A stretch of 64,000 nt of DNA from Chloroflexota bacterium (GTDB lineage Bacteria; Chloroflexota; Dormibacteria; Dormibacterales; Dormibacteraceae), in assembly GCA_005880915.1 (NCBI GenBank), contig VBIW01000034.1, positions 62,001-126,000 on the forward strand. Reading direction: 5' to 3'. Positions 14,024-19,777 of the stretch are shown here, in pieces. Numbering within the stretch: the stretch's first letter is position 1; the number at the start of each line of letters is the position of its first letter. The notes under the pieces were generated by a model. The model saw only the letters and a program-made list of their open reading frames with translations. It had not been told where the DNA came from and searched no databases. The position numbers and the translations under genes were made by a program.

Positions 14024-14401
14024 ATGACCAGCTACCGCGCGGATCAGGTGGGGGAGCAGGTGCGTGAGGAGATCATGTCGATCATCCGGCGTGACCTGAA
14101 GGATCCGCGAATCGGATTCGTGAGCATCACAGCCGTGCGCATGTCGCCGGATCTGCGCCAGGCGCGCGTCAGGGTCAGCGTGCTCGGCAATCCTGACGAG
14201 CAGAAGGCGTCGATCAAAGGACTTGTCTCGGCGAAGGGAGTCATCCGGCACGAGCTGGGCCGGCGCCTGCAGAACCTCAAGTTCTCGCCGGACTTGCGCT
14301 TCGAGCTCGACCCATCGATCGAGTACAGCGTCCACATCTCGGAGCTGCTGAAAGAGGTGCTGCCACAAAGCAACGGCGAGCCGGAGGAGCAGAACCGATA
14401 G
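14024..14401 (+). CDS. rbfA: Ribosome-binding factor A
   Basis: 125-residue KH-like 30S maturation factor. Characteristic text: REEIMSIIRRDLKDPRIGFVSIT and the C-terminal RFELDPSIEYSVHISELL. ATG 14024 is preferred because GGAGG lies 5-6 bases upstream; a GTG at 13997 is a possible longer start. The gene ends in GATAG, the TAG overlapping the first codon (ATA) of the next gene. Confidence 0.92.
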   Translation: MTSYRADQVGEQVREEIMSIIRRDLKDPRIGFVSITAVRMSPDLRQARVRVSVLGNPDEQKASIKGLVSAKGVIRHELGRRLQNLKFSPDLRFELDPSIEYSVHISELLKEVLPQSNGEPEEQNR

Positions 14402-15402
14402 CGACCGTCAAACACGACAAACTGCATGTCTACGACGAGATCAAGGAGCTCATCGACGCGAACCAGGAGATCCTGATCTTCGGTCACAAAGACGCCGACG
14501 GCGACACGCTCGGCTGCAGCCTCGCGTTCGCGGAAGCGCTGCGTACTGAGGGCAAGGACGTCTGGGTGCTCGTACCGCCGCCGCTGCCGCCGATGTACGC
14601 GTTCCTTCCGGGATTCGACGACATCCAGGCCGAGCCTCCTCGCGGCGTCGACCCCCAGCTCGTCTTCTTCTTCGACTCGGGCAACCTGGAGCGCTCGGGC
14701 AGCGCGGTCCGCGGCATTGCCACCCACGCCACGATCATCAACGTCGACCACCATCCCTCCAACACGAGGTTCGGTGACATCAACGTGATCGATCCCAACG
14801 CATCAGCGGTGGGCCAGATGGTGATGGAGATGCTCGACCACTTCGGCTATCCCATCACGCAAGAGATCGCCACCGACCTCTACGTAGCGCTGCTCACGGA
14901 CACCGGCGGCTTCCGTCACGAGAACACGACGCCGCGAGCGCTCGAAGACGCGGCCCGACTCGCGAGGCTCGGCGCCGATCCGGGTCACATCGCGACGCAG
15001 GTCTACAAGATGCGCCCGGAGACGACCCTCAAGCTGAGCGGCCTCGCACTGGCGACGATGCGGGTGGAGATGGAGGGCCGCCTGGCGTGGGCGAAGGTGA
15101 CGCGGCGCATGCTCAAGGAGGCGAACGCCGCGATGTCGGAGTCAGAAGGCATCATCGACACTTTGAACAGCATCGCGGGCCTGGAGCTCGCCATCCTGTT
15201 CAAGGAGGTCTCGAGCGACCTGACGAAGATCAGCGTCCGAAGCCGCGGCGGGGTCGATGCGGCTGCGTTGTGCGCGTCGTTCGGCGGCGGCGGCCACATT
15301 CGCGCCGCGGGCGCTGAGATCGGAAAGCCGATGGATGAGGCGGAGAAGTTCGTCCTGGCGGCCGCCAAGGAGGCAATCCTTGCCGCCACGCCCCAGCCCT
15401 GA
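14398..15402 (+). CDS. nrnA: DHH/DHHA1 phosphoesterase (NrnA-type nanoRNase/pAp phosphatase)
   Basis: DHH-superfamily enzyme of the kind that degrades very short RNA, pAp or cyclic-di-nucleotide products. Metal ligands are H30, D32, D34, D36 in GHKDADGDTLGCS, the DHH motif is NVDHHPSNT, and the DHHA1 motif FGGGGHIRAAGAEIG is near the end. No ATG, GTG or TTG exists upstream of the first metal-binding motif within the frame back to about 14329. The first canonical codon, GTG 14566, would delete H30-D36. ATA 14398 overlaps the rbfA stop (ATAG) and has GGAGGAG (14383-14389) 8 bases upstream, so I place the start there (334 residues). CTG 14422 is the alternative. Confidence 0.85.
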   Translation: MATVKHDKLHVYDEIKELIDANQEILIFGHKDADGDTLGCSLAFAEALRTEGKDVWVLVPPPLPPMYAFLPGFDDIQAEPPRGVDPQLVFFFDSGNLERSGSAVRGIATHATIINVDHHPSNTRFGDINVIDPNASAVGQMVMEMLDHFGYPITQEIATDLYVALLTDTGGFRHENTTPRALEDAARLARLGADPGHIATQVYKMRPETTLKLSGLALATMRVEMEGRLAWAKVTRRMLKEANAAMSESEGIIDTLNSIAGLELAILFKEVSSDLTKISVRSRGGVDAAALCASFGGGGHIRAAGAEIGKPMDEAEKFVLAAAKEAILAATPQP

Positions 15403-17190: not shown

Positions 17191-18311
17191 CGAAAGTCCT
17201 CGTCATCGGCGGCGGCATCGCGGGCTACTGTGCGGCGCTGGCGGCACGGCGCGACAGGGCGGAGGTGACTGTCGTCGCGAGGGCGCCCGGCGCGACCGCG
17301 CTCTACGCGGGCGCCATGGAGGTGGTGGACGACCTCGATGCGATCCTCGGTTCGCCGAATCATCCCCTGGCGCGCCTGGGGATGGACTCGGTTGGCCTCG
17401 CCACCGAGCTCGATGCCGCGATATCGACGCTGCAGCTCGCGCTCGGCAAAGAAGGCTTGAGGTTCGAAGGAAGCTGGCGCAGCCGTGGCCTGTACGCCGA
17501 CATCCACGGCCTCGCCCGGCTGGCCGGCGTGGTCCCCGAAACCGTCGCGCGTGGCGAGCTTGGTGGGTTGAGCGGCAAGCGCGTCGCTGTCATCGGCGTG
17601 CCGCAGGTCGGGGACTACGACGCTGCATCAACGGCCCAGGCCCTGAAGGAGCTGCACGGGATCGAAGCCTTTGCGGAGGAGATCTCGATCCCTGAGCTGC
17701 CCCAGGCGGCGTCGCTGACCGACCTCTACGGACGCCGCGCACCGTCGCCTCGAGCCCGCGGCGCGGCGATCGCGTATCCGCCCGGGTTCACGAACCTGCC
17801 ACCGGACGGGTTTGAGCTGCTCGCCTCGCCACCTTCGCCCCACGGTTGGCGCCTCCAGCAGGCGATCTCGCTCGGCGCCGTAAGCGCGGAAGTGACCTCG
17901 ATCGAAACTGGACGCGGCAAGGCGACGTCGGCACGCGCGAATGGCCGCGCGTTCCGCGCTGACGCCTTCGTGCTTGCCACGGGCCGGCACATCGGCGGCG
18001 GCCTGCGAGCCGGGCGTACGACAAGTGAGCCGCTTCTTGGGCTGGGCGTGTTCGACGACGGCGCCCCGGCGGCGAGCCTGGGGACGCGGCTGCGCCACGA
18101 GAAGTACCTCGAGCCGGCAGCCCAGATGCGGATGGGGCTGATGACCGACAAACGGTTGCATCCACTGCTGGAGGACGGCTCCGTCCCGTACACGAACGTC
18201 TACGCGGCCGGCGCCATGCTCGGCGGTTACGAGTACAGCGGTCCATGCGGCTTCGGTGTCCCGATCCTCACCGGTTGGCTCGCCGGACGCTACGCCGCAA
18301 GGCAAGACTGA
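17187..18311 (+). CDS. GlpB-like FAD-dependent glycerol-3-phosphate dehydrogenase subunit
   Basis: 374-residue flavoprotein. N-terminal Rossmann motif VLVIGGGIAGYCAALAARR and C-terminal VYAAGAMLGGYEYSGPCGFGV with LATGRHIGGGL are characteristic of GlpB, the subunit that passes electrons in anaerobic glycerol-3-phosphate dehydrogenase. It is a little shorter than enterobacterial GlpB. No GlpA or GlpC is adjacent; instead an AGPS-like flavoprotein and a diacylglycerol-kinase-like gene follow. Starts TTG overlapping ribF (TTGA). The family call is good; the reaction in this organism is inferred. Confidence 0.7.
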   Translation: MTKVLVIGGGIAGYCAALAARRDRAEVTVVARAPGATALYAGAMEVVDDLDAILGSPNHPLARLGMDSVGLATELDAAISTLQLALGKEGLRFEGSWRSRGLYADIHGLARLAGVVPETVARGELGGLSGKRVAVIGVPQVGDYDAASTAQALKELHGIEAFAEEISIPELPQAASLTDLYGRRAPSPRARGAAIAYPPGFTNLPPDGFELLASPPSPHGWRLQQAISLGAVSAEVTSIETGRGKATSARANGRAFRADAFVLATGRHIGGGLRAGRTTSEPLLGLGVFDDGAPAASLGTRLRHEKYLEPAAQMRMGLMTDKRLHPLLEDGSVPYTNVYAAGAMLGGYEYSGPCGFGVPILTGWLAGRYAARQD

Positions 18312-18415
18312 ATGTCAGCGAAAGACGACCTGTTCCGCCTCGTTGTATCCAACGGCCCCTTTCGAGCGATGGAATTCGGCTCCGTTGGCGCCAGCGGTAT
18401 CGAATTGGGAAGCTC

Positions 18416-19777
18416 ATGAGGGCAGAGCTCGAGAAGATCGTCGGCGCAACCGCGGTCGACGAGCGCCGGGTCCGCGACCTATGGCCGCTGGCGATCATGG
18501 AGGAGCGTGCCGGCAATACACCGCCACGCGTGCTCGTCGTCCGACCGTCGGGTCGGGAACAGGTCGCCGCAGTGCTGCGCCTGGCGGCCGCCAACCACGT
18601 CGCCATCACGCCGATGGGCGGAGGCAGCGGCGTGTGCGGAGCGCTCGCGCCGGCGGCAGGCGAGCTGGTCCTCGACATGGGCGCCTTCGACCGGGTCCTC
18701 GAGGTGGACGAGACGAACCTCGTGTGCCGCTGCGAGGCGGGTGTCAACGGCTACGCGCTGGAACAGCAGCTCAACGCCCGCGGGCTGACCCTCGGCCATT
18801 TCCCGAGCTCGCTCCCGGGCACGACTGTCGGTGGGCTTGTCGCTACGCGGTCCTCTGGCCAGCAGTCGAGCCGCTACGGGAGCATCGAGGACATGGTGAT
18901 CTCGCTCGCCGTAGTCCTGCCCGACGGCACCTTCGCTGCTCCGCGCCCAGGTCCGCGGTCCGCCGCCGGGCCTGCGCTGCATGACCTGTTCATCGGAGCG
19001 GAGGGAGGGCTTGGAGTGGTGATCGGCGCGGTGCTACGCGTCCACCGGCTCCCCGAGTCGACAGTAGGCCGCGGCTACGCGTTTCGCGACCTGCGCGCCG
19101 GCCTCGACTGCATGCGGGCGGTCATGCAGGCCGGAATCCGGCCACTGGTGATGCGCCTCTATGACGCGGAGGACACCGCGTTTGGCGGCTACGACCTGAG
19201 CGATGGCGAGTGCTTGTTGGTGGTCGCGACCTGCGGGTTGAACGCGGTCGCCGCGGCCGAGGCTTCGGCGGTAGAGGCATTCGCGCGCGAGGCGAGGCAC
19301 CTTGGCGAGGCGCCCTGGGAGCGCTGGCTGCGCCACCGCTTCGACCTCTCGGCTGAGCGCCTGAAAGCCTTCCTCGAGCCACCCGGAGCGTACCTCGACA
19401 CCATCGAGCTCGCCGCCGCCTGGACCGTCCTCCCCGAGCTGCACGAAAGGGTGAAGCGCGCAATAGCCGTCGGCGGCCTCGCGTTATGCCATTTCAGTCA
19501 TGCCTACGAGCAGGGCTCCTGCGCCTATTTCTCATTTGGCGGCTCAGGTGATACGGAAGACGAAGCGCGTGCGGCCTACGGACGCGCATGGGAGGGAGCG
19601 ATGACCACGGCGCTCGAACTCGGCGCGACGATCACCCACCACCACGGCGTGGGGCAGGTCAGAGCAAGATGGGTCGCCGACGAGATGGGAGGTTGGATGA
19701 GGGTGTGGCGAGCGTTGAAGGATGGCATCGACCCTGGTGGGATCATGAACCCGCGTGCGGTCGGAGGCCGGTCATAG
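18416..19777 (+). CDS. FAD-binding oxidoreductase of the alkyl-DHAP synthase (AGPS) type
   Basis: 453-residue FAD_binding_4 flavoprotein. The PP-loop is ITPMGGGSGVCGALAP, the second FAD segment is GHFPSSLPGTTVGGLVATRSSGQQSSRYGSIED (its start GHFPSSLPGTTVGG is diagnostic), and late motifs SHAYEQGSCAYFSF and ITHHHGVGQ match the Tyr and HHH catalytic regions of alkyldihydroxyacetonephosphate synthase. That enzyme swaps the acyl group of acyl-DHAP for a fatty alcohol to form an ether bond. Close relatives act on glycolate or lactate, so the substrate is unproven. ATG 18416 is chosen over an upstream in-frame ATG at 18245 that lies inside the previous gene. Confidence 0.75.
   Translation: MRAELEKIVGATAVDERRVRDLWPLAIMEERAGNTPPRVLVVRPSGREQVAAVLRLAAANHVAITPMGGGSGVCGALAPAAGELVLDMGAFDRVLEVDETNLVCRCEAGVNGYALEQQLNARGLTLGHFPSSLPGTTVGGLVATRSSGQQSSRYGSIEDMVISLAVVLPDGTFAAPRPGPRSAAGPALHDLFIGAEGGLGVVIGAVLRVHRLPESTVGRGYAFRDLRAGLDCMRAVMQAGIRPLVMRLYDAEDTAFGGYDLSDGECLLVVATCGLNAVAAAEASAVEAFAREARHLGEAPWERWLRHRFDLSAERLKAFLEPPGAYLDTIELAAAWTVLPELHERVKRAIAVGGLALCHFSHAYEQGSCAYFSFGGSGDTEDEARAAYGRAWEGAMTTALELGATITHHHGVGQVRARWVADEMGGWMRVWRALKDGIDPGGIMNPRAVGGRS

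Follow-up and report, generated by a model that had tools for sequence, protein, structure and literature searches.

In the window, i.e., the whole stretch of 64,000 nucleotides analysed here, the nrnA-like gene downstream of rbfA almost certainly begins, as judged from comparative sequence data, with the codon AUA at position 14398, which lies in a four-base overlap with the rbfA stop codon (Table 1). The start site, its conservation, the Shine-Dalgarno element, the overlap, a single gain of the codon and an ATA start of infC in the same genome were all placed from sequence; from known systems we infer, by analogy, re-initiation, discrimination by IF3 and a benefit of low NrnA. The reading as a whole, according to which nrnA would be started at AUA 14398 by re-initiation from rbfA, would be sensitive to IF3 and would be held at a low level of product, is considered highly probable.

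Table 1. Features of the two stop-start overlaps in the window (positions refer to the window).
Feature	Position	Strand	Evidence
rbfA, upstream partner, 125 aa	14024..14401	+	Pfam RBFA 114.8 bits; TIGR00082 above cut-off; stop TAG 14399-14401
Shine-Dalgarno element GGAGGAG, spacer of 8 nt to ATA	14383..14389	+	GAG at -11 to -9 kept in at least 30/31 species
ATA, predicted start codon of nrnA	14398..14400	+	ATA in 30/31 and GTA in 1/31 species; coding signal from next codon
ATAG overlap, predicted nrnA start and rbfA stop	14398..14401	+	rbfA stop TAG in 31/31 species; outgroups with ATGA, GTGA or TTGA
nrnA-like DHH/DHHA1 phosphodiesterase, 334 aa	14398..15402	+	Pfam DHH and DHHA1; PDB TmPDE (E 5.6e-43) and NrnA chains
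Shine-Dalgarno element GGAGG of second ATA-started gene, spacer of 6 nt	19763..19767	+	
Second ATAG overlap, predicted ATA start of yegS/DAGK-like gene on TAG stop of ORF 18245-19777	19774..19777	+	
YegS/diacylglycerol-kinase-like protein, 314 aa	19774..20718	+	Pfam YegS_C 119.8 bits, DAGK_cat 101.5 bits

The reading frame of nrnA is shifted by -1 relative to rbfA. The initial annotation had claimed a frame devoid of canonical starts back to about 14329; this was borne out, and the open stretch reaches even further, to TGA 14194, with no ATG, GTG or TTG in this frame between that stop and GTG 14566. The latter, the first canonical start, falls behind the HxDxD metal site; the motif was found in frame as H30-K-D-A-D, upstream of GTG 14566 as had been stated, and is followed downstream by DHH and GGGGH motifs in the same frame. 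Likewise, the proposed arrangement of an ATA overlapping the rbfA stop, with GGAGGAG 8 bases before it, agreed in all coordinates (14383-14389, 14398-14400 and 14399-14401). The product scored above cut-off with Pfam DHH (53.8 bits) and DHHA1 (41.1 bits), and its nearest PDB chain was the phosphodiesterase TmPDE (TM1595), NrnA chains being matched as well; with 93.2 bits it missed the equivalog cut-off of NCBIfam NF053633 (350 bits). By these sequence matches the protein is a DHH/DHHA1 phosphodiesterase resembling NrnA, but its status as an NrnA equivalog is not assured. The NrnA of relatives breaks down short RNAs as well as pAp.

Reading of the junction covered 31 species, the window among them, from seven genera (g1, g2, g3, g4, g7, g9 and g11) of one family of Dormibacterota, which are uncultured bacteria of soil. 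The start column contained ATA in 30 of these and GTA in one (L019), and the overlap was accordingly ATAG or, in that one species, GTAG. At fourfold-degenerate sites of nrnA, identity to the window sequence was 0.40-0.57, and 0.82 in the nearest species; conserved isoleucine columns elsewhere in the gene were mostly ATC. Judged against these sites, the ATA start is conserved above neutral expectation. Between -60 and +30, the only positions conserved to at least 95% were GAG at -11 to -9, ATAG at 0 to 3 and one base of codon 3, a set which is the signature of an initiation site. That the conservation is due to a conserved RNA structure was ruled out, since RNAalifold found no consensus fold in the region -60 to +60 of the junction. 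The last codon of rbfA occurred in eight forms among the 31 species (CGA, CCA, CAA, TCA, AAA, CTA, ACA and TCG), with A at the wobble base in 30 of 31 rows, as compared with a genome-wide share of the A-form of 4-22% for those codon families. Codons 2-3 of nrnA (GCN ACN) are conserved, with Ala (26/31) or Val (5/31) encoded by codon 2; either of them as residue 2 permits removal of the initial Met. The predicted Shine-Dalgarno energy had a median of -11.6 kcal/mol across species, versus -4.6 kcal/mol for the genes of the genome, calculated with the usual anti-Shine-Dalgarno sequence, as a search of the window genome's assembly did not find the 16S 3' end.

Since about 30 species have kept this weak start, it is not an error but a feature that is maintained. 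The window genome is a metagenome assembly, so that a miscalled ATG or GTG might be suspected; independent assemblies of the 30 other species, however, showed ATA in 29 cases and GTA in one. The sequencing correction which the initial annotation had named as a possible refutation is thus contradicted, the probability of such an error is practically nil, and by the sequences at hand this explanation can be regarded as already refuted. The same annotation had mentioned CTG 14422 as another possible start. Although CTG is a near-cognate start codon in bacteria, initiation at this or another downstream near-cognate codon would appear very improbable: the column is mostly CCG in relatives, with CGC and others also present, CTG itself being absent from most of them; the position lacks a Shine-Dalgarno element (+0.4 kcal/mol); the conserved codons 2-3 stand upstream of it; and in several relatives (L013, L018, L021 and L063) stop codons 4-6 codons upstream of ATA close the frame. 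Those stops bear also on the notion of an RbfA-NrnA fusion, arising from a -1 frameshift where rbfA ends, for which the -1 register of nrnA and its open upstream frame in the window could be adduced. Such a fusion would require that frame, which is closed in several species, to be open; moreover, a slippery sequence is absent, the bases before ATAG vary freely, and the ATGA, GTGA or TTGA found at outgroup junctions speak against frameshifting. Its probability is put at next to none.

Independent evidence for initiation at AUA 14398 was obtained from codon usage. A model was trained with about 600 kb from the window genome (assembly of 4.13 Mb in 228 contigs) and applied to 504 genes there. Of all these, nrnA possessed the strongest coding signal ahead of the first canonical start, with 35 bits in a block of 55 codons. 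The coding block began at 14401, the codon right after ATA, and together with the ATA in 30 of 31 species this upheld the original proposal of an ATA start. Of the genes that lack a usable canonical start, only nrnA had ATA behind a strong Shine-Dalgarno element. ATA is a scarce codon in this genome, with a share of 0.2% (310/156,664) of all codons and 5% of the Ile codons. A comparative scan over all near-cognate codons was too noisy, and a usable result was obtained when it was restricted to ATA. The pattern GGAGG-N4-10-ATAG was not enriched genome-wide (53 occurrences versus 66 for its reversed form, which served as control), and only two sites, nrnA and the yegS-like gene, combined a strong coding frame with a long frame upstream that ends in the TAG. 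A general use of ATA starts was rejected on these grounds; apart from nrnA and from infC and the yegS-like gene, two users of ATA which the initial annotation had not named, such starts are very rare in this genome. A variant initiator tRNA was also rejected, as the single initiator tRNA gene matched in the window genome has the anticodon CAT. Outside the window, on the minus strand, a frame of 492 codons (G000:C1:130930) showed coding signal 46 codons ahead of the first canonical start, with a CTG in CTGA context as candidate start.

Canonical codons at the junction were encountered in outgroups only. In other genera of the family they were ATGA (g13), ATGATG (g14), GTGA or a nearby ATG (g12), TTGA (g5) and GTG (g8); in families f2 and f4, ATG or GTG overlapped the rbfA TGA or was close to it. 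A check for ATG in relatives had been suggested initially, and its outcome was ATA in the close relatives, with ATGA, GTGA or TTGA restricted to outgroup genera and families; the codon is thus derived and was then kept. On the NrnA tree the ATA label requires two changes, which fits a single gain together with the exceptional GTA; given the outgroup junctions, ATA was gained once from canonical ancestors. In genus g10 (L028, L029), both ATA and a nearby canonical start are missing from nrnA, which there is likely to start at an ATC behind GGAGG. In sister family f3 a probable ACG start of nrnA was noted in the ten g16/g18 genomes read (L146, L148-L150, L154-L159), behind AAGGGGA or AAGAGGA and 11 nt before the rbfA stop; G046 has ATG.

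A derived AUA start need not be useful. The overlap could have drifted from ATGA to ATAG, the weak start then being baggage for which the strong Shine-Dalgarno element compensates; the unusual strength of that element is what compensation would predict. In addition, ATAG bars a one-step return, because ATA to ATG would convert the rbfA stop TAG to TGG and thus destroy it, and such a mutational trap could be a part-cause of the conservation. Yet easy exits have remained unused in all 31 species. One leads in two steps from ATAG through ATAA to ATGA; another would turn GTC into GTG at codon 2, which encodes Val in five of them. GTG is avoided early in nrnA: among Val codons it accounted for 1/18 in codons 2-25 versus 283/604 from codon 31 on, in rows which are not independent of each other. 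Also, the yegS-like gene, which starts with ATA in 19/23 and GTA in 1/23 close species (window included), has canonical starts in other genera, GTG in g2 and g9 and ATG in g3, so that canonical and ATA states do interchange there. A real but non-adaptive AUA start is therefore thought to be rather unlikely.

For the favoured reading, a weak start coupled to rbfA, the following course of events can be envisaged. The ordinary initiator tRNA (anticodon CAU) would decode AUA 14398, on which the ribosome would be positioned by the strong Shine-Dalgarno element within the end of rbfA. Since the last two bases of AUA are common with the rbfA UAG, ribosomes finishing rbfA would already be at the nrnA site and able to re-initiate; overlapping stop-start pairs can couple translation in this manner (PMC6728339). 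Initiation would be weak and resisted by IF3, because its third base, A, forms a mismatch with the anticodon CAU. In vitro, the third base was the only one at which departures from Watson-Crick pairing were tolerated (PMC10158994), and it is there that AUA and GUA differ from AUG and GUG. AUU and AUA starts in Staphylococcus aureus, where infC starts with AUA, are reported to give about 10-30% of the AUG yield (PMC13009471), and in Streptomyces, sigR is repressed by IF3 at a GTC start (PMC5472188). By analogy to these precedents for near-cognate starts, IF3 and overlaps, synthesis of NrnA probably amounts to a fraction of that of RbfA, and would be higher when IF3 is scarce. Its output would then be well below that of RbfA and tied to the level of IF3, as for infC, ccpN and sigR; the weak start, in other words, probably holds NrnA production low.

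A known case of this kind is infC, which codes for IF3, starts with AUU, AUC or AUA and is autoregulated by IF3. The nrnA start resembles it in being a conserved AUH codon with a Shine-Dalgarno element, and the infC of the window genome (G000:C1:59280, L093; about 17 kb upstream and about 2.7 kb before the window) itself starts with ATA, as taken from alignment and reading frame. The difference is that infC regulates its own factor, whereas nrnA, which encodes no initiation factor, has its AUA in overlap with a stop codon. Within the window's genus infC started with ATA in 14/15 and ATT in 1/15 cases; ATA was found in genus g3, ATC in g2, g4, g5, g7 and g8, and in other families ATA (f4) and ACG (f3). 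Several genera with ATC in infC have ATA in nrnA, and the two genes thus do not match codon for codon. The gene ccpN of S. aureus and Bacillus subtilis shares with nrnA a conserved AUA and a strong Shine-Dalgarno element outside infC, but encodes a transcription regulator of Firmicutes, and the accessible part of the source describes no stop-codon overlap for it (PMC13009471). Streptomyces sigR has a genus-wide noncanonical start, a strong Shine-Dalgarno element and one-base variants; its GTT in two species is a parallel to the GTA exceptions of nrnA and the yegS-like gene. Codon and gene differ, and repression by IF3, which is predicted for nrnA, was shown by experiment for sigR (PMC5472188). 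Termination-reinitiation overlaps of the type ATGA or GTGA have the same four-base geometry, and outgroups show them with the same gene pair (PMC6728339); they differ in that nrnA starts with AUA, and therefore the overlapped stop is UAG instead of UGA.

Further noncanonical starts were observed in family f3. There, infB (IF2) lacks a canonical start, having ATA GCN ACN in five g16 species and ATC in G046 (loci L182, L183, L184, L186, L189 and G038:C51). For rpsO (S15) an apparent CTG start behind GGAGGT was noted (L184, L185, L187, L188, L190 and G038:C51:85253), and in G038 the entire gene of 87 aa is without a canonical start. It may tentatively be proposed, with more doubt than confidence, that Dormibacterota keep a small set of genes for translation and RNA turnover on weak starts as an IF3-controlled regulon, in which AUAG would serve as a working stop-start junction. 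Members would be infC (AUA, AUC or ACG), nrnA (AUA, possibly also ACG or AUC) and the yegS-like gene (AUA), joined in a sister family by infB (AUA or AUC) and rpsO (CUG); this list is as speculative as the regulon itself.

A literature search yielded no paper on nrnA start codons or on start codons in Dormibacterota, and to our knowledge few conserved noncanonical starts have been described outside infC. Since gene callers generally accept only ATG, GTG and TTG, nrnA would be called across the family from GTG 14566, minus its metal site, or would be lost. For every gene with a conserved noncanonical start, discrimination at the start codon probably sets the output, and an AUA stop-start overlap which is kept in seven genera, alongside an AUA-started gene for IF3, would offer a cheap probe of IF3 control beyond infC.
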